64,000 nucleotides of DNA from Candidatus Bathycorpusculum hydrogenotrophicum (GTDB lineage Archaea > Thermoproteota > Bathyarchaeia > Bathyarchaeales > Bathycorpusculaceae), in assembly GCA_009783705.1 (NCBI GenBank), contig WRCX01000001.1:1-64000 (forward strand). Reading direction: 5' to 3'. Below the pieces are notes generated by a model. It saw nothing but the letters and a program-made list of their open reading frames with translations. It made no database searches and was not told the DNA's origin. The translations under genes were made by a program, and so were the position numbers. Position 1 is the stretch's first letter. The number at the start of each line of letters is the position of its first letter. Positions 48,291 through 60,174 of this stretch are shown here, piece after piece.

Positions 48291-51200
48291 CTATTTGAAG
48301 TCAAAGAGAGTGGCCTGTTTGGGTTTTTTGTTATCAAACATCAAAGTAATTTCCTCTTTGATAAGGTTCATGCGTTGGGTGTAATAGTTGGGCAACCCAT
48401 ATTTATCGACTAGTTGTTGAGCGGCTTTAAGATATTTTTCAATGTTACCACGATAGACAGTTAGGGTAAGAGCGCCGCCGCATCGGGTGCATTTGCCGCC
48501 AAGCGGGAGACGACGGTATTTTGCGTTACAGGATTTACATCTAAATCCCTGAGTGGAAAAGGCACGCATGTTTCCAGCGATGTCACGCATCAGATGGGTG
48601 TTGAGGACTTTTAGAGCAACCCGTTTGGCATCAACAGCATCGATTTTTTCGCCCAACCCCAGCTGCATGTTGAGCTTATCAGTCATAGATTTGAATTCTT
48701 TGTAACTGCTATTGGCGTTGCCCAGATTAATATTGGTGCAAGGAGTGGTAAATTGGAAGCCTTCAAACTGGCCTTCAGTGCCTAGTCGATGGCTGACAAC
48801 ATCCATAAAGGTGCTAATGAGACGGGCTTCACCTTTGATTAGGGTTTGTTTGTAGAATTCCAGAGGATAGGTTATACTGACATCGAAATCGTGAGCTTGG
48901 CGTTGTACTTCTTTGGTGTTTACAAAGGGGATAAGCAGAATGGGTGCATCCATAATACCGCCTATTTGGGCGGGTAAAAAGTTGCGAGAGAAATTAATCA
49001 GTGTATCAAGAGCTAGCATGATGGCGTCTTCGTCACCGTCACAGTCTCGACGTTTAGCGGAGTGCCAGATGGGGTGGGCATAGATTAAATTGCGGCTTGT
49101 GAAACCCACCACTCGACCCAAGATGCAAGCACAGGTGTGGGGGGCTAAGCCAAAGATTAGGTGTCCAACCATGTCTTCGGGTTTTGTAACGTTGTAGAAA
49201 GCGGGGAGTTTGTAGACCCGGGTGAGGAGTTCGTCGATAAAGTTAGCGGTTTGCACCAGGTATGTACCGGCGCTCCAGGGGATAACGACGTCTTGGATTT
49301 TTAGTTCGCAAACTTGGTTGGGATCGGTTAGGGGTAAGCCGTGGGTGTCGGCATGATAGCCCATTTGGTGCATCTTTTCAATGGATACCCCGATTTCAAC
49401 CGGTGTGATATGAGTGAGAGGCGCGTTGGTACCGTCGAAGCGTATGGTACCATCCTTATAGGTGGATACGCCATGTTTTGCACGCAAAATACCTTTCTCT
49501 AAAATTTCAGGCATCTTGTCAGCGTTGGTTAGGCCCTTCACGCCTCGCAACATTTTAGGCGTTGAGCAACCAAGGTTGTTGCTTGCATTTGATAGCAGTT
49601 CTCTAAAGTTAAGGGGTTGGCGCTGATAGAGTACTGCATCGGCTTTGCAGGTGCCGCAGTAATCGTCTTTTAGGGCTCGACCGCATCTTGGGCAAACTTT
49701 TTCGGGAACCGTTGGAGCATCACAGGTGTCACATTTTATTTTTCGGGTGTAGGTTTTGCAATCGGGACATTTGCGCTTAGCTAAATCGACAAAAACGGGT
49801 CCTTTTTTAGCGGCTTCACAAAAGTCTCGATGGGAACCACCTGCTAGGCCTACAGGAAAAAGGACATGGACCATGGGACGCATTTCACGGTGTTTGGCTT
49901 TCTCGGGTCGACCCATACGACCACCCACATAGGTTGGAGCTTTATCTTTAACCTCAACACCGCACAATGCACTTAGCAATTCCAGTACAGTGGTTGCCTG
50001 CAGGGCTTCAGTTAGTCTAGGGGTCCCATAGCCAAGAGTAAAAGCCATCATCGCAGCATCTTCGCCGCTCATAACAAGTTTTCCATCAATGATGCTGTGG
50101 GGAGCGAAAATTTTGCGAAGCGACTTTATAGCATCCTCAGTTGCTATGCCGGTAATCATTGTGATGGTTGATGAATCACCATCAGCATCATCATTGTTGG
50201 TTAGGGTCACTTGGCTTGTTTGGAGCCATTGGCGTAACGGTTCTACTTCTTGAGGTGTTGAGAGGCTTGTCCAGTAGAAGGTTGCGCTGGGTGCAAGGGG
50301 AATACCAAAAGTTTGGCTAAGGGCAACGGCTTCTTTGGTTGTGGGTTTGTTTTGAAAGGGATCAGCTATGAAGTCTTCGAGACGTTCAGCTGGGATTTGG
50401 CAGTCTTGGGCGGCTTTTTGGTAGTTGCCGCTATATTTTGTGAGTGCATTTTGGAGGTCTTTTGTCCACCATTCCTCCACGTATCCTGAGGGAGGAAGTG
50501 CTTTGTTGCTGTAGAGAAAGTCTCCAAAATCAATGAGCATATCGCCTAGGAAGAGGATTTTTTGGATTTTGCCCTTAACGGTGGATTCATAGTTCTCAAG
50601 TGATACTCTAACGACCGAGTTATCTTTGAGCAACACCACAGGTTTCTCGATGCTGTCTACGGGCATGGTAACGCCGCCTTTGCCGGGGAGTTCTAGGCGC
50701 ATTTGGGTGCCAGCGGCTAGAAAGCTCTCCACAACAAGCATGGTGGCAGGATGGATGCCTACTGCTGAGAGTCCGGTGTTTCTTGATCGACCATATCGGA
50801 GTCTAAAACCGCCACGTGTTGAGGGGAATGCGAAGATGGGGCGCCCGGCAATTACGTCGTCCATAAAGCCGCCGGATTTTTTTTCAGATTTTTTCTTAAA
50901 GTTTTTGAGCCATTCCCAGCCTGAGAAGCCAAGTTTGTCGATGATGACATGGACTTTTAATGCGCGTCCGACGATACCGTCGTTTATTACGCGCAGAGCG
51001 CCGCCTCGGACGCGGTTAGTTTCGACTCGTTCGAGGTTACGATAAGAAGAGACCTCAACAGGGTCTGATTCTGTACCTGTGCATTCCACTGGTACAAGGT
51101 TGAGTGCTTTGCGGAGTTCTTCGTCGGGGATGTGATATTGGAAGCGGCCAACGGAGCGTTCGTAAAGTCTGAGTTCTTCTATGAAGCGAGAGATTTCTTC

Positions 51201-51737
51201 TTCGGTTGGCCTATAAACGTCTAACTCTAGTTCTCGTCGTACATAGTCGCCAACGACAAGGGTTAGAGCTTGATCGGTGCCTCCGGCTGAGCGTATAGGA
51301 CCGGCAAAATAGATGCCTAGATAGCGGGTTTGGTCAGCGTTTTTTTTGATTTTTACTTGTGCGATGCCCTGAATTGGTGCAGCGGTTAAACCTTCAGTAA
51401 AAATTGCTAATGCGGTACGGATAGCTTGCTCGGCTAGTTTTTCGGGTGATTTTTCTTCATCCGTTTGGGCGAATTTGCCTTGTGCGATTTCTTTAGCGGC
51501 ATAGAAAGCAATTTCTTCGCGGGGCATAGTTTTGCTGAGTTCGCGAATGCTAATAGCAACACCTTTGGGTCCAACCAGTCCCTCAACCAAATCGGCGATG
51601 TCTTGGGCTATGATGCACTCTGTTTTTAGTGCAGGATCTAAGCCTACTGATCGGGCGCTGTCGCTTATGGTGTAAAGATGTTTGAGTTCGGTTTCCATGG
51701 TTTGGATGTAGGTTTGGTAGTCCTTGCTTATGTTCAA
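48291..51737 (-). CDS. polC: DNA polymerase D large (catalytic) subunit DP2
   Basis: 1148 aa, full length and without an intein. The catalytic subunit of the archaeal replicative polymerase PolD. Landmarks: GIYFAGPIRSAGGTDQALTL near the N-terminus, FPSTRGGFRLRYGRSRNTGL, NDDADGDSS and the active-site loop KRRDCDGDEDAIMLALD with its acid residues. Zinc-binding clusters: CPDCKTYTRKIKCDTC, CPRCGRALKDDYCGTC and CKSCNAKY...CTRCGGAL. The last residues, KQATLFDF, form a PCNA-binding (PIP-like) motif. The small subunit is encoded at 58564-60174, beyond the putative origin. Confidence 0.97.
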   Translation of the reverse strand: MNISKDYQTYIQTMETELKHLYTISDSARSVGLDPALKTECIIAQDIADLVEGLVGPKGVAISIRELSKTMPREEIAFYAAKEIAQGKFAQTDEEKSPEKLAEQAIRTALAIFTEGLTAAPIQGIAQVKIKKNADQTRYLGIYFAGPIRSAGGTDQALTLVVGDYVRRELELDVYRPTEEEISRFIEELRLYERSVGRFQYHIPDEELRKALNLVPVECTGTESDPVEVSSYRNLERVETNRVRGGALRVINDGIVGRALKVHVIIDKLGFSGWEWLKNFKKKSEKKSGGFMDDVIAGRPIFAFPSTRGGFRLRYGRSRNTGLSAVGIHPATMLVVESFLAAGTQMRLELPGKGGVTMPVDSIEKPVVLLKDNSVVRVSLENYESTVKGKIQKILFLGDMLIDFGDFLYSNKALPPSGYVEEWWTKDLQNALTKYSGNYQKAAQDCQIPAERLEDFIADPFQNKPTTKEAVALSQTFGIPLAPSATFYWTSLSTPQEVEPLRQWLQTSQVTLTNNDDADGDSSTITMITGIATEDAIKSLRKIFAPHSIIDGKLVMSGEDAAMMAFTLGYGTPRLTEALQATTVLELLSALCGVEVKDKAPTYVGGRMGRPEKAKHREMRPMVHVLFPVGLAGGSHRDFCEAAKKGPVFVDLAKRKCPDCKTYTRKIKCDTCDAPTVPEKVCPRCGRALKDDYCGTCKADAVLYQRQPLNFRELLSNASNNLGCSTPKMLRGVKGLTNADKMPEILEKGILRAKHGVSTYKDGTIRFDGTNAPLTHITPVEIGVSIEKMHQMGYHADTHGLPLTDPNQVCELKIQDVVIPWSAGTYLVQTANFIDELLTRVYKLPAFYNVTKPEDMVGHLIFGLAPHTCACILGRVVGFTSRNLIYAHPIWHSAKRRDCDGDEDAIMLALDTLINFSRNFLPAQIGGIMDAPILLIPFVNTKEVQRQAHDFDVSITYPLEFYKQTLIKGEARLISTFMDVVSHRLGTEGQFEGFQFTTPCTNINLGNANSSYKEFKSMTDKLNMQLGLGEKIDAVDAKRVALKVLNTHLMRDIAGNMRAFSTQGFRCKSCNAKYRRLPLGGKCTRCGGALTLTVYRGNIEKYLKAAQQLVDKYGLPNYYTQRMNLIKEEITLMFDNKKPKQATLFDFK

Positions 51738-54384: not shown

Positions 54385-54882
54385 ATGGAGGAATACTGTA
54401 ATTTGAAGCTAAAAGACGGTGTAACAGTCTGGTTAAATGGGGCATTAAATGACCCCATTGTCAAAATATTAGCCAAAAATAGCCAATTAACGAAAGTCCA
54501 GCTCGAAACTCTGCTTATTGACGTTTTATCCGAAAATATGTCGGACAAACAGCTAAAGTACGATGATAAAGCCGCATTACGACTAACAAAGGCGAAAATA
54601 AGCCGCGGTAGCTTTAATAGGACTTTAAAACAGTCCCGTGAAAACGTCATTAAATCCATCTATACAGTGTTACTTTTGGGGTATTTGGGTGTTTTTGAGA
54701 GTACAACTCTTGACCCGTATCTCGAAATAGCAAATAAACTACACGAATATGTCGAGGCGCACCAGAACGTACCAAGCAAAGAGGGGGAACTAAAAGACCA
54801 TCAAAAAGTCATAGAAATCATCAGAAATGAGCTAGAAACGAGCCTAAAACGGCTTTCTAGCACCTCAGAAGGCCCTTTGTGA
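54385..54882 (+). CDS. Orphan 165-aa protein next to the origin region
   Basis: 165 aa, family not recognised. Mainly helical and soluble: start MEEYCNLKLKDGVTVWLNGA, then VQLETLLIDVLSENMSDKQL, the strongly patterned SRGSFNRTLKQSRENVIKSI and YTVLLLGYLGVFE (about 72-112), and a C-terminal helix ending SSTSEGPL. The RGxFNRTLxQxRxNVIxSIYTVLLLGYLG stretch looks like a conserved, perhaps DNA- or membrane-contacting, motif. It is bracketed by TGTGA-type sites, and its own stop lies in a 16-bp perfect palindrome. A role in replication, partition or an integrated element is possible. Confidence 0.72.
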   Translation: MEEYCNLKLKDGVTVWLNGALNDPIVKILAKNSQLTKVQLETLLIDVLSENMSDKQLKYDDKAALRLTKAKISRGSFNRTLKQSRENVIKSIYTVLLLGYLGVFESTTLDPYLEIANKLHEYVEAHQNVPSKEGELKDHQKVIEIIRNELETSLKRLSSTSEGPL

Positions 54883-55042: not shown

Positions 55043-55200
55043 TTGTGATGTGTGATGTCATACTTTCCATGAAAGGAATCACCGATAACCTTAAAAGTCC
55101 ATGGAGAATACTGTGATGTGTGATGCAACTGTTAAAATCACATAAAAATCACGGTTGAGTCACATTCAAATCACAGTTAAAGTCACGGAGGGAAAAATCA
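55043..55200. repeat. TGTGA/TCACA motif cluster B
   Basis: A 14-bp TGTGATGTGTGATG occurs twice (55044-55057 and 55112-55125). Then TCACATAAAAATCACGG, AGTCACATTCAAATCACAG, AGTCACGG and AATCACGGTTGA follow in close succession up to about 55200, running into the first codons of the coiled-coil gene. Half-site spacing is close to one helical turn in places. Confidence 0.7.
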
Positions 55201-56051
55201 CGGTTGATCTCACAATAGTAATCTTGGTCGTTTTAGCAACTGTCACTGTAGTAGCAGGATATCAGTACTATAAACACATCCGAATGGCACATCAAGAATA
55301 CGAGAAAGCCAATATGGAATATGAAAAAGCCAACATGGAATATGAAAAAGCCAACATGGAATACGAGAAAGCCAAAGATTTCCTCGAAGATATTGTGCTA
55401 AGTTTTGATCGTGAACTTAAACGTGAATCAGCAAAGTTTGACACAATGGTATCAAAGGTTGAAGGAAGCTATACGACTGCAGATGTGAGTTACAGAAAAG
55501 CAGAGACAATTGAGCGTAAAATAGAACCAATGGAAACTCAGTTAGATGTGCTCATCCAATCATATAATACTATATCGCAAGAGATCACAGATAGTCAAAC
55601 AGAGAGTATGCAGTATAATTCAAATGTGCTCTCAGGGTTGTCTGGTCTGGAAGTAAAACTAAAGGACATAGACGCTACACAGGGAGCGCTTAGAAGCAAA
55701 ATATCAGACCTTGAAGAACAATTCAAAAAGTTAGCCGCTACTCCACCGCCACAACCTCAGTTTGCAACTGAAGTCATGTTACCGCCTATACCTATCAAAC
55801 GTGATAAAGCACTAGCAGCATTAACAGATACTGAAATTCAAGTCTTAGAAATGCTCTCCAAAGAAGGATCGAAAACAGCACCAGAAATTAAAGAGAGGGT
55901 ACATCTAAGCCGGGAGCATACTGCACGCTTAATGAAGAAACTCTATGAGGACGGCTATTTAGAGAGAGAAGCAGGCAAACTTCCTTTCCGCTATAGTATA
56001 AAAAAAGAAATGGAAGCACTACTACAAAAAGTAGAAAATCCTGCGATTTAA
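55155..56051 (+). CDS. Membrane-anchored coiled-coil protein with C-terminal winged helix
   Basis: 298 aa. A single N-terminal transmembrane helix (18-38, LTIVILVVLATVTVVAGYQYY), a long coiled coil (42-192) that opens with YEKANME heptads, a Pro-rich hinge (TPPPQPQ, 196-202), and a MarR-like winged helix (219-285: LTDTEIQVLEMLSKEGSKTA, LSREHTARLMKKLYEDGYLE). A protein that links membrane and DNA, possibly holding the origin region at the membrane or acting as a membrane-bound regulator. The first ~15 codons consist of the TCACGG-type repeats, so the start is uncertain; TTG 55155 is one option, and GGAGGG at 55188-55193 suggests a start further in. Confidence 0.75.
   Translation: MSHIQITVKVTEGKITVDLTIVILVVLATVTVVAGYQYYKHIRMAHQEYEKANMEYEKANMEYEKANMEYEKAKDFLEDIVLSFDRELKRESAKFDTMVSKVEGSYTTADVSYRKAETIERKIEPMETQLDVLIQSYNTISQEITDSQTESMQYNSNVLSGLSGLEVKLKDIDATQGALRSKISDLEEQFKKLAATPPPQPQFATEVMLPPIPIKRDKALAALTDTEIQVLEMLSKEGSKTAPEIKERVHLSREHTARLMKKLYEDGYLEREAGKLPFRYSIKKEMEALLQKVENPAI
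55296..55377 (+). repeat. Four 21-bp tandem repeats coding for YEKANME heptads
   Basis: Units of 21 bp (GAATATGAAAAAGCCAACATG and variants) at 55296, 55317, 55338 and 55359; units two and three are identical. They encode heptads EYEKANM, lengthening the coiled coil by whole heptads. Such a minisatellite can change length by slippage. Confidence 0.85.
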
Positions 56052-56114: not shown

Positions 56115-56546
56115 CTACTTTATGATGTGTTGTTTAATTGCTGGTGCAATATTTGGTGCTGCCTTATATTTGAGGCTGTTTGAATTGCCGGTTCTAAGCA
56201 ACATGCCTTTGTCGACCATACGTGCTAGATAAGTAGAGATGGTGCTTAGACTAACTGGTTCTTTGAGCTCTGTTTCATATATGGTTTGGATGTCTTTGGA
56301 AGTGAACCAGATCAATGGAAAATTTTTCTGGACAACATGTTGAACCTTTTCAAAACGTGATAGTTGCCGGTTAGGCATCGCTGGGCTGGAATTGACAACT
56401 GGGTTTTCGTTTGGTGCACCGCCTAACAACTCGACTAAATCAAGAAGACGCAGAGCTTTATCGCGGGTCACTTGACCCTCAAAAGCAATGGTATATCGAT
56501 TCCCATCGCTGTCGAAGAGCTCAACACGCATTTTACGAGCCGGCAC
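56115..56546 (-). CDS. Small protein with C-terminal winged helix, upstream of the origin
   Basis: 143 aa. Residues 1-45 form a small beta-rich unit (MRVELFDSDGNRYTIAFEGQ, TRDKALRLLDLVELLGG), then a variable linker rich in Asn/Pro, then a winged helix (about 66-135: FEKVQHVVQKNFPLIWFTSK, SLSTISTYLARMVDKGMLLR). Soluble. GTG 56546 has AGGTGA four bases upstream and the surrounding DNA again has TCACACC/GTGATGG motifs. It could bind the TGTGA sites and so regulate this locus; that is inference. Confidence 0.75.
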   Translation of the reverse strand: MPARKMRVELFDSDGNRYTIAFEGQVTRDKALRLLDLVELLGGAPNENPVVNSSPAMPNRQLSRFEKVQHVVQKNFPLIWFTSKDIQTIYETELKEPVSLSTISTYLARMVDKGMLLRTGNSNSLKYKAAPNIAPAIKQHIIK

Positions 56547-56729
56547 ACTTTCACCTATAGGTTGTTCACAATATCTCTACTTCACACCTTATAACTGTGA
56601 TGGTGAAACAAGCAATAAAAAAAAGTATAATTCAGACATAAAATCACTAATTAAGCTGTTTTTGTACTTATTTCAGAATTACCAGCTTCACAGAAAAACA
56701 GATTTGTGAAATAGCTAACTTGACGGTTT

Positions 56730-57320
56730 GGTTTAGGATTTCCAGTAGAAGTGTAGGGGTGCCTTGTTCACTGTAAACTGACCTAATTAGGATATTTTTC
56801 AACAAAACAGGCATATTAAAACGTCAGATTTACTACTGATTTACAAGCATTCACAGTTTTGTGAACAGAAAATCAGCTGTGAAGTTCGGTCAAACTTTAC
56901 ATGTTGATCATTAGGCAAAAAAATTCCAGACAGATCCAGTCCAAGCTGGCTAGCGTTACTTTTAGGCCGTTTTTCCATGGTTTTAGAACCACAGAGCCAC
57001 CCCTCCATTTCCGCTCGAAGATTTTTAGGCAAAAAAGAAGTCAGGCGAGGCAGAAAAAATATTCACAGCAGGTTTGTCTAAGTTTTTGGACAAGAAGAAT
57101 TAATATACATAATTCTGCGTTATTACAAAGAGTATAATCTTATTCATTATTATTATTACCAAACTACTTTAACGATTTTTTTCTCCAGTAGAAACTTTGG
57201 GGTGTGTGTTCTCTTGGTTGCTGTCTGTTTTCCTCTTCTTTTAGAAATGTTTTGTACTCAAACCAGTTTTTTGTACTGTATCCTTTATCTGTTCCACTCG
57301 AAATAACGGTTGTACCTCTG
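56730..57320. other. Candidate replication origin with ORB-like repeats and AT-rich core
   Basis: Directly upstream of orc1/cdc6. The motif TCCAGTAGAA-N5-GGGGTG occurs perfectly at 56741-56761 and 57184-57204 on the + strand, and in inverted orientation at 56998-57018 (TCGAGCGGAA-N5-GGGGTG). A weaker copy, TCCACTCGAA, lies at 57293-57302. Archaeal ORB elements have the same layout: a TCCA-TGGAAA dyad plus a G-string. Between the inverted and the second direct copy lies a strongly AT-rich stretch (about 57100-57180, with TCATTATTATTATTACC), suitable as the unwinding element. Additional TTCACAG/CTGTGAA pairs lie near 56851-56881. Confidence 0.78.
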
Positions 57321-57342
57321 TGGAAAAGGACGATAGGGCAAT

Positions 57343-58572
57343 ATGGGAAACTCAGTATTAGATGACGTATTTGACAGCTTTGTCAATGGCATACGGCTGT
57401 TTAAAGATCGTGAAGTTCTAAGACATGATTATCTACCAGACAAATTACCCCACCGAGAAGACCAAATCCGCCTCTTAGGTTCAACTGTTGCCCCTGTCCT
57501 AAAAGATGCCCGTTGTTCAAACATATTTATCTACGGCAAAACCGGCACAGGCAAAACTGCCGTCACCAAATACGTTCTGAGCCATCTAGAATCAAAAGCC
57601 AAAGAGTACGGCGCTCAAGTAAAATTCTGCTACATCAACTGCCGAATGGTCGGCTCAGAATACCGCGTGTTTGCAAGTCTTAGCCAAAGCGTAGGCCTAA
57701 GCATACCCTTCACAGGTCTCTCTGTTGGCGAAGTCTTTGATCGCTTCCGCTCCGGACTGGATCAATCCCGCATAATCTTCATAATAGTTCTCGATGAAGT
57801 AGACTCACTAATCAAAGACCGCGGCGACGCCTTTATGTACGAACTTACCCGCATCAATGAAACCCTAAATAAAAGTAAAGTTTCCATCATCGGAATATCA
57901 AACGACTTACGATTAAAAGAATTCCTTGATCCCCGCGTCTTTAGTTCACTTAGCGAAGAAGAACTAGTTTTCCGCCCCTACGACGCAGGCGAACTCCGCA
58001 ACATACTCCTCGAACGCTCCAAACTTGCTTTCCAAGACGGCGTGCTCTCTGACTCAGCCCTAAGTATCTCCTCAGCTCTAGCTGCCGCCGAACACGGCGA
58101 CGCCCGACGTGCCCTAGATCTATTGCGGGTTGCAGGCGAAGTAGCTGAACGCCAAGGTGCAAAAGGCGTAACCGAAGAACATGTACGCCAAGCCGAAAAA
58201 CACATCGAACACAACCGTGTCATCGAAGCACTCAAAAATCTAACTCTCCACTCAAAACTGGTGCTGTTAAGTGTATATCACCTAAACAAACCCAGCGCTA
58301 CCACAGGCGAAATCTATGATGTCTACAACGAATTATGCGGCGAAATGGGCGCAGGACTTCTGACACAAAGACGCCTAGGTACCCTTGTTAACGAACTTGA
58401 TTCCATGGGGTTGGTTAACGCCAAAGTTGTCAGCATGGGCCGCTATGGCAGAACCAAAAAGATCCGGCTTGAAATCAGTCGTGGTTTAATCCGCGATGTT
58501 TTTGGCGGCGATAACCGCTTTAGCCAATTGTTTGCCTCCTCTTCAAAAAATAGCAACAAAAACTCAGGATAA
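57343..58572 (+). CDS. cdc6: Origin-recognition/helicase-loading protein Orc1/Cdc6
   Basis: 409 aa, family length. AAA+ core: Walker A GKTGTGKT (65-72), Walker B VLDEVDSL, sensor-1 GISNDLRLKEFLDPRV (also the initiator-type DNA-contact region) and sensor-2 EHGDARRALDLL. C-terminal winged helix from about 320 (SATTGEIYDVYNEL, TQRRLGTLVNELDSMGLV), which binds ORB DNA. Lies next to the putative origin, as archaeal initiators usually do. The end overlaps the convergent DP1 gene by 9 bp. Confidence 0.96.
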   Translation: MGNSVLDDVFDSFVNGIRLFKDREVLRHDYLPDKLPHREDQIRLLGSTVAPVLKDARCSNIFIYGKTGTGKTAVTKYVLSHLESKAKEYGAQVKFCYINCRMVGSEYRVFASLSQSVGLSIPFTGLSVGEVFDRFRSGLDQSRIIFIIVLDEVDSLIKDRGDAFMYELTRINETLNKSKVSIIGISNDLRLKEFLDPRVFSSLSEEELVFRPYDAGELRNILLERSKLAFQDGVLSDSALSISSALAAAEHGDARRALDLLRVAGEVAERQGAKGVTEEHVRQAEKHIEHNRVIEALKNLTLHSKLVLLSVYHLNKPSATTGEIYDVYNELCGEMGAGLLTQRRLGTLVNELDSMGLVNAKVVSMGRYGRTKKIRLEISRGLIRDVFGGDNRFSQLFASSSKNSNKNSG

Positions 58573-60174
58573 CGGATTTATAAAATCTAGAACTGCAGTT
58601 TCTCTTGTTTGCAGATTTATCACTGGGACTTTTCCTGGGGTGGGAACTAGACCTAGTTTTTCCATATAATCAGTTTGTTCCTGCCAGCCGCCTGAATTCA
58701 CCACCAAAACTCCACGGTAGTTACAAAGACCATTGACATGAGTATGGCCGGCATGGAATATGTCTGGAACTTGGTCGACAACAAGATAATCACGGTTCTC
58801 AGGTGAGAGCATGGTTTTCCCACCATATACCGGTGCTAGATGGCGGCACTGTATCAGTAGTCGCATTGATTTTTCGGGATGCTCATTGTCCATGCCTGGT
58901 ACAACTCCAATTATGTCATTTAGACTCACACCATGAAACATCAAAACTTCAATGCCATGTAAACTGAGATAGCATGGACTTCCAACAGAGTGAATGTTTG
59001 TTTTGTTTTTGATAGATGTAAGATAACCCTCTGGGATGGCGGGTTGGGGTTGGGATTTGCGTGCGGCGTCATGGTTACCCGGTGAGAGCACAATTTCTAT
59101 ATAATTTGGAATTTTTTCTAAATATTTAGTTGCAAAATTATATTGTTTATGTATGTCACGGATGGTTAACTCTGTTTGTTGCCCTGGATAGATACCCACC
59201 CCATCCACGATGTCCCCAGCAATTAAGAGGTACTTTACTCTGCCTGCTATCTCTCGCATTGCAGGGGTTCCATATTTTCCTCTGAGCCAAAGTATGAAAC
59301 GTTTGAAGGCTTCTTTGTTGAACTTTGTACTGCCAACATGAATATCTGAGGTGAAGACTGCATAGACCGGTTCTTGTGCATGCTGAGGTACTTTTCTGCC
59401 CACTTCGGGAAAAATAATGTCCTCAACCATCAAGAGATTTGTTTTAGTCTTGATAACTGCCGCACAGAAAATAGTGTCGGGTAGAAGCATAAGCGCTTTT
59501 CTTTTAACTTCCTCGGGTGCCTTTTGTGGTACTAGAATAGTTGCACTGCCCCCCAGATCCTCTACAGAGAGTATAGTGCTATTTTTGGAGTCTCGCTTCT
59601 CAGTTAACATGCATATAACTTTAAGTTTGGATTGAGGCTGTGATTTGAGTGCTTCCACAATAGGTGTGGCGGCTCTAACATCCATTCGCTGTCTGAGTAT
59701 TTTCTCTAAGCGTTTGAAGCGGTCTTGGAAGAGCCCTTTGTATTCTTGAAGAGTACCATTGGAGGTTAGTTTGCCTGTGGCATCTTCGAGAATTTTGAGT
59801 TCTGAGGGGATGTCTTTGGCATAGGGATAAAAATCGCTATCTGAGCCGTTAAAGCGTACTACTGTTGATTCAGAATAGTTTGGTTCTGACGTGGGTGGTG
59901 GCGATGATGGTTGGATGTGTTTTTTGATTGTTTCTTCAACGGTTGCGGTCGCTTGTTGTATAATTGCTTCAAGAAACTCCCGTTCGATAAACATGGGTTT
60001 GTCTGTTAGTGCTTCAAGTTTTTGAATTGCCAGCGTCATAATTTCAAGGGGATCGTTGACTTCTGCGTTTTGGATGAGAAATTCAAAGGCTTCGCTGTTT
60101 AATTGGTAGCCTGCTGTTATAGTTGATTCGATGGCTCTTTGGAGTTTATCCTGTGCACTCATCATTCTGCCCAT
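58564..60174 (-). CDS. polB: DNA polymerase D small (exonuclease) subunit DP1
   Basis: 536 aa. The proofreading 3'-5' exonuclease partner of DP2. The calcineurin-like phosphoesterase site is intact: SDIHVGSTKF, AGDIVDGVGIYPG, SPGNHDAARKS, MFHGVSLND and HAGHTHVNG. N-terminal helical region (1-90), then an OB fold (about 180-245) before the catalytic domain. ATG 60174 or one of the near Met residues starts it. Both PolD genes lie within 10 kb of the putative origin. Confidence 0.95.
   Translation of the reverse strand: MGRMMSAQDKLQRAIESTITAGYQLNSEAFEFLIQNAEVNDPLEIMTLAIQKLEALTDKPMFIEREFLEAIIQQATATVEETIKKHIQPSSPPPTSEPNYSESTVVRFNGSDSDFYPYAKDIPSELKILEDATGKLTSNGTLQEYKGLFQDRFKRLEKILRQRMDVRAATPIVEALKSQPQSKLKVICMLTEKRDSKNSTILSVEDLGGSATILVPQKAPEEVKRKALMLLPDTIFCAAVIKTKTNLLMVEDIIFPEVGRKVPQHAQEPVYAVFTSDIHVGSTKFNKEAFKRFILWLRGKYGTPAMREIAGRVKYLLIAGDIVDGVGIYPGQQTELTIRDIHKQYNFATKYLEKIPNYIEIVLSPGNHDAARKSQPQPAIPEGYLTSIKNKTNIHSVGSPCYLSLHGIEVLMFHGVSLNDIIGVVPGMDNEHPEKSMRLLIQCRHLAPVYGGKTMLSPENRDYLVVDQVPDIFHAGHTHVNGLCNYRGVLVVNSGGWQEQTDYMEKLGLVPTPGKVPVINLQTRETAVLDFINPLS

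Follow-up and report, generated by a model that had tools for sequence, protein, structure and literature searches.

A candidate chromosomal replication origin in Bathyarchaeia with ORB sites and a second, interleaved array of conserved hexamers

ORB-like repeats lie upstream of the orc1/cdc6 gene of Candidatus Bathycorpusculum hydrogenotrophicum, which raises the question of whether this locus is a chromosomal replication origin and which proteins would recognize it. Here, we analyzed the 64-kb stretch of DNA that holds the locus (the window) together with its home genome and related genomes. Our favored reading, to which we give a probability of about 0.7, is that positions 56547-57342 form a chromosomal origin with two layers of sites, one for Orc1 and one for a dedicated winged-helix (wHTH) protein that would regulate initiation or act as its architectural partner. 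This reading draws on the sites, their uniqueness and conservation, gene linkage, and joint loss; from these we infer binding and any effect on replication.

ORB sites beside orc1/cdc6

We scored 21-bp boxes against the pattern TCCAGTRGAA-N5-GGGGTG (Table 1). The initial annotation had described two identical direct boxes at 56741 and 57184, a third copy in inverted orientation at 56998-57018, and a degenerate fourth at 57293. Both direct boxes matched the pattern exactly. The inverted copy was present, but its two mismatches make it a degenerate rather than an identical copy. The fourth box was also present, with half of the core kept (TCCACTCGAA) and the G-string lost; it lies inside one of the most conserved blocks in an alignment of 29 regions upstream of orc1, and it may have a role in orc1 autoregulation. 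The AT-rich stretch reported between the inverted and the second direct copy was found at 57100-57183, where A+T content reaches 80%, compared with 56% across the window. Two further conserved blocks, TCTAAGTTTTTGGACAAGAAGAATTAATATA and AGAGTATA, occupy 57078-57108 and 57130-57140 inside the AT-rich DNA that separates ORB2 from ORB3, the position at which Sulfolobus carries ucm. A tRNA search of the window found none.

Table 1. Positions of genes, ORBs, and hexamer boxes in the window. Offsets are relative to ORB1.
Feature	Position	Strand	Remarks
DNA polymerase D large subunit DP2	48291..51737	-	
Four tandem TGTGAA	56076..56111	.	10-bp steps, at 3' end of wHTH gene; kept in some Bathycorpusculum-type relatives
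wHTH gene	56115..56546	-	143 aa; divergent from orc1; candidate binder of TTCACA boxes
TTCACA box 1	56565..56570	+	beside wHTH gene start; offset ~-175; 49/58 loci
TTCACA box 2	56581..56586	+	offset ~-159; 46/58 loci
TTCACA box 3	56687..56692	+	offset -53; 48/58 loci
Extra box TGTGAA	56705..56710	-	kept only in close relatives
ORB1	56741..56761	+	TCCAGTAGAA-GTGTA-GGGGTG; exact match; 57/61 Bathyarchaeia loci
Box 4	56767..56772	+	degenerate here (TTCACT); offset +27; exact TTCACA in 36/58 loci
Box 5	56840..56845	+	degenerate here (TTTACA); offset +100; exact TTCACA in 44/58 loci
Boxes 6+7	56850..56865	.	palindrome TTCACA-GTTT-TGTGAA; offsets +110/+120; 45/58 and 41/58 loci
Other extra box TGTGAA	56878-56883		
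ORB2, inverted	56998..57018	-	TCGAGCGGAA-ATGGA-GGGGTG; 2 mismatches; 60/61 loci
Other extra box TTCACA	57062-57067		
AT-rich stretch	57100..57183	.	candidate unwinding element between ORB2(-) and ORB3(+); 80% A+T
ORB3	57184..57204	+	TCCAGTAGAA-ACTTT-GGGGTG; exact match; 60/61 loci
ORB4, degenerate	57293..57313	+	TCCACTCGAA-ATAAC-GGTTGT; just upstream of orc1; 31/61 loci at tolerance used
orc1/cdc6	57343..58572	+	initiator, 409 aa; Cdc6_C, Cdc6_lid; TIGR02928
DNA polymerase D small subunit DP1	58564..60174	-	convergent with orc1

The adjoining gene at 57343-58572 was identified as orc1/cdc6, as first annotated, and the nearest solved structures to its product are S. solfataricus Cdc6-1 (2qby_A) and A. 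pernix 2v1u_A. The nearest named relatives are Candidatus Bathycorpusculum and further Bathyarchaeota assemblies, which places the window in Bathyarchaeia. A match of 100% identity to orc1 occurs in a metagenome-assembled genome recorded as Nitrososphaerota archaeon (L009), probably of termite-gut source, judging by its Bathycorpusculum neighbors. The home genome also encodes a second Orc1/Cdc6 paralogue (L110 6953-8152; G000 contig C12), and several further Bathyarchaeia likewise carry a paralogue of this kind. We considered the C12 paralogue as the site of a second origin and rejected this, as ORBs were looked for there and none were found.

Within the 64 kb, three matches with at most three mismatches were found against 0.69 expected, and 5 of 100 shuffles reached three; by itself, this count is only mildly significant. 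The genome-wide search suggested by the initial annotation was more telling. In the home genome (2.24 Mb in 107 contigs, ~96% complete), the only exact matches were those at 56741 and 57184, and one of the two matches with two mismatches was the inverted copy ORB2. The sites are thus clustered only at this locus.

Relatives were found to keep the sites, as the initial annotation had expected of an origin. ORB1(+), ORB2(-), and ORB3(+) were present in 57, 60, and 60 of 61 Bathyarchaeia loci, compared with 0, 1, and 0 for a reversed-motif control, and the layout upstream of the orthologous orc1 (direct ORB, inverted ORB, AT-rich stretch, direct ORB) had nearly constant spacing between loci. Moreover, across 13 relatives' genomes, all 25 matches to TTCCANTRGAA-N5-GGGGTG with at most one mismatch fell at the orc1-adjacent locus, and the reversed control gave 0. 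The earlier view that the TAGAA core is unusual concerns a minor point. The common archaeal ORB motif is TCCA[CG]T[TG]GAAA[TC][GA]AAGGGGT with a 5-bp spacer (PMC4164010), the spacer length also found in the boxes of this locus. TAGAA represents one substitution in that consensus, and relatives interchange TAGAA and TGGAA freely at equivalent sites. Therefore, we regard the TAGAA core as a minor, single-base variant.

The locus combines several ORB repeats (TCCA..GAA core and G-string) that are clustered and not scattered, inverted ORBs around an AT-rich element (57018 on the minus strand, 57100-57183, and 57184 on the plus strand), and an adjacent orc1/cdc6 of the ORB-binding type, and we accept it as a canonical ORB-type origin. 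Genome-unique clustering and conservation in relatives support the initial proposal of a chromosomal origin, and we consider it very probable that this locus is an origin.

A conserved hexamer array and its linked winged-helix gene

The initial annotation had seen the ORB sites and missed a second feature of the locus, an array of TTCACA/TGTGAA boxes next to a wHTH gene. In the alignment of 29 upstream regions, the non-ORB words TTCACA and TTCACA-N4-TGTGAA were as conserved as the ORBs. When hexamers were ranked with no prior choice in 18 diverse Bathyarchaeia origins, TTCACA/TGTGAA came first of 2080 (94 occurrences vs 9.2 expected), and ORB words ranked below it. The array comprises about seven boxes over 300 bp around ORB1. 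Counted in 58 loci anchored on ORB1, with a background of 0.00055 per position, the box offsets were constant to ~1 bp. At least four boxes were present in 57 of 61 origin segments compared with 4 of 1297 control segments, with means per segment of 5.9 and 0.30 (n = 1297), respectively. In the home genome, both the TTCACA-N4-TGTGAA palindrome and the three-box array occur once, at the origin. The tandem TGTGAA boxes at the 3' end of the wHTH gene number three to five copies in L009-L013, and their 10-bp phasing is suggestive of cooperative binding along a single face of the DNA.

The 143-aa product of the wHTH gene is predicted to consist of two strands, a helix, a linker, and a winged helix (model mean pLDDT 69, moderate confidence). 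Foldseek searches with this model returned MecI, BlaI, and RosR at E values of 3.5e-3 to 6e-3 (TM ~0.36-0.40). The Penicillinase_R (BlaI/MecI) score of 21.3 bits falls below the curated Pfam cut-off of 22.6, and weak matches were seen in 36 of 49 members of the wHTH family, the best with E 3.4e-05. The recognition-helix motif LS-T-STYL-R is nearly invariant in the 49 sequences. A phage origin of the gene was rejected, as PHROG gave no match. One copy of the family is present in 182 of 300 Thermoproteota genomes.

The wHTH gene adjoins the ORBs, transcribed divergently from orc1, in 60 of the 61 loci. Two Bathyarchaeia genomes, G002 (L064) and G035 (L269), have an intact upstream region with ORB2, ORB3, and the marR gene retained, and in both the wHTH gene and the array are absent. 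Other apparent losses in genomes where the orc1 orthologue was found were rejected: the contigs of G301, G305, G259, and G277 break just upstream of orc1, and the locus sequence of G051 ends ~250 bp upstream. Therefore, these cases are assembly gaps and not losses. Two further genes lie nearby. The gene at 55155-56051 (+) encodes 298 aa, with a hydrophobic stretch at the N-terminus that resembles a membrane anchor, a coiled coil, and a C-terminal winged helix (MarR/TrmB-like). The gene is conserved next to the origin in both Bathyarchaeia and AOA-like genomes, even where the wHTH gene is lost, and its product might hold the origin at the membrane. The gene at 54385-54882 (+) encodes a 165-aa protein that gave no match in Pfam, NCBIfam, or PHROG and is found near the origin across Bathyarchaeia, with 52-96% identity in most loci.

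We consider it likely that the wHTH protein binds the TTCACA boxes. The boxes could be transcriptional operators only, at an otherwise ordinary ORB origin, with the wHTH protein autoregulating, perhaps controlling orc1, and taking no direct part in initiation. Boxes 1-2 sit at the wHTH start, and the weak similarity to Penicillinase_R/BlaI-MecI points to repressors that bind short dyads. However, we find this explanation unlikely, given that boxes 3-7 surround ORB1 at constant offsets, at distances of 140-320 bp to the start of the wHTH gene and ~480-660 bp to orc1. Furthermore, in three loci where orc1 has moved away from the ORBs (L027, L074, and L075), the wHTH gene and its array stay with the ORBs and not with orc1. 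Most boxes keep to the ORBs, at a distance from either promoter, and we therefore favor direct participation in initiation over a purely operator function.

A related arrangement in AOA-like genomes

The gene order DP2, marR, wHTH, origin, orc1, DP1 is common to the Bathyarchaeia locus and AOA-like genomes (family f15, e.g., G124), which we infer to be ammonia-oxidizing Nitrosopumilaceae. In these, a wHTH orthologue is again divergent from orc1 across an interval that contains ORBs (GCCTGGAGTGGAAATAAAGGGGT) of the same polarity around an AT-rich stretch. The top hexamer of the interval was TTAACA/TGTTAA in 9 of 9 AOA-like genomes. In Bathyarchaeia, where the hexamer is TTCACA, the recognition helix has the sequence SLSTISTYL; in AOA, where it is TTAACA, the sequence is KLSVISTYL or KLSIISTYL. 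This change of helix effectively amounts to one evolutionary event, which counts against the two-layer reading. In N. maritimus, a single origin has been mapped, where ORB repeats adjoin cdc6 (PMC5333045, PMC5797428, PMC11005403).

Outside these two groups, wHTH homologues in f21, f25, f36, f47, and the other families checked were not beside ORBs, and the array was absent. The ancestral role of the wHTH protein may therefore not have been at origins, as other Thermoproteota families encode their orthologues at sites remote from orc1 and ORBs, where arrays are absent. One locus of family f16 (L222, genome G070) carries several ORB-like sites next to a wHTH orthologue, without the hexamer array and with orc1 absent from its 19-kb stretch; it is possibly an origin away from orc1 that is marked by the wHTH gene.

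The lineage comparison also bears on whether the TTCACA boxes have a different binder (the second Orc1/Cdc6, for example, or a general nucleoid protein), with the wHTH gene a coincidental or merely regulated neighbor. We judge this improbable: the gene and array were lost jointly in G002 and G035, the second Orc1/Cdc6 persists in G002, and the box sequence and the wHTH recognition helix change together between lineages. Such a candidate binder does exist in the home genome and several relatives, as the second Orc1/Cdc6 is without ORBs of its own in the former, and in Sulfolobus an origin motif is recognized by UBP, a nucleoid protein (PMC12141716). With the wHTH protein retained as the probable binder, we propose only tentatively, with the odds somewhat against it, that this protein and the TTCACA/TTAACA array form an essential second origin-recognition system common to Bathyarchaeia and ammonia-oxidizing archaea.

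Replication start, proposed mechanism, and known systems

The initial annotation had proposed GC skew as a further check, and the outcome was mixed. Cumulative skew on the home contig does peak at ~57-68 kb, where genes also switch strand, and third codon positions keep only part of the signal. The contigs of relatives showed no turn at the orthologous site (the 447-kb contig of L024's genome, G292, and G089). Since gene orientation contributes and relatives lack the turn, we rejected skew as proof of an origin and count it neither for nor against one. The "chromosome" CP070649.1 (G001) is a scaffold whose pieces are joined by many runs of 100 N, which makes it useless for analyses of skew or origins. 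A conserved regulatory region or dormant origin, with replication beginning elsewhere, would accommodate relatives' long contigs without a skew turn, and some archaea reportedly replicate independently of origins. This is the least probable of the alternatives, as the mapped origins of Pyrococcus, Sulfolobus, and N. maritimus coincide with ORB clusters next to orc1 (PMC4010727, PMC5333045, PMC5797428), and the cluster described here is genome-unique and kept across the class.

Under the two-layer reading that we favor, the first layer would consist of ORB2(-), the AT-rich element, and ORB3(+), plus ORB1 and ORB4, bound by the adjacent Orc1/Cdc6. By homology with Sulfolobus oriC1, Orc1/Cdc6 would open or license the AT-rich element and recruit MCM. 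The second layer would be the TTCACA/TGTGAA array around ORB1, whose most likely binder is the divergent 143-aa wHTH protein. This protein probably represses its own gene via boxes 1-2 and would load onto the origin via boxes 3-7; around ORB1, it could gate Orc1 loading, bend or organize the origin, or affect MCM.

The locus resembles Sulfolobus oriC1 and Pyrococcus oriC in its TCCA...GAA core and G-string, its inverted ORBs around an AT-rich element, and its adjacent orc1, but differs in the extra conserved hexamer array, the divergent wHTH gene, and TAGAA in two ORBs. With the Nitrosopumilus-type (AOA) origin, it shares gene order, ORB polarity around the AT-rich element, and a hexamer array, as seen in AOA-like genomes, although the hexamer there is TTAACA and two tandem ORBs lie upstream. 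The 143-aa protein is like BlaI/MecI/CopY (Penicillinase_R) in being a small, predicted winged-helix protein with a dyad of short half-sites and an alignable recognition helix, but it scores below the Pfam cut-off, has an N-terminal strand-strand-helix, and is encoded at an origin. WhiP is the winged-helix initiator of Sulfolobus oriC3, an origin without Orc1, whereas the present origin has ORBs and orc1. The ucm/UBP system of Sulfolobales and Desulfurococcales likewise adds a second sequence-specific protein and its motif to an ORB origin (PMC12141716). However, UBP is a strand-swapped dimer of ~111 aa with a beta-saddle fold, a single 11-bp motif between ORBs, and >300 genomic sites (PMC12141716), whereas the 143-aa protein is a predicted winged helix and not a beta-saddle, strand-swapped dimer, with a multi-box array unique to the origin; fold and layout are unrelated. 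A literature search, with most subscription journals outside its reach, found no Bathyarchaeia origin and no TTCACA or AOA TTAACA array. The conserved boxes next to the wHTH gene point to an apparently undescribed partner in replication initiation.

Bathyarchaeia are an abundant, largely uncultured class, for which this locus provides a concrete origin candidate. It offers a protein, a site array, a predicted lineage change of specificity, and two natural losses, and because the same gene and an array are present in AOA-like genomes, the proposal is testable in cultured ammonia oxidizers. The locus also serves as a sharper in silico origin marker for metagenome-assembled genomes, where skew fails. 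If the more tentative proposal of an essential second recognition system is true, the origin of Bathyarchaeia and ammonia-oxidizing archaea would be defined and controlled by two sequence-specific proteins and two interleaved sets of sites, and not by Orc1 alone.
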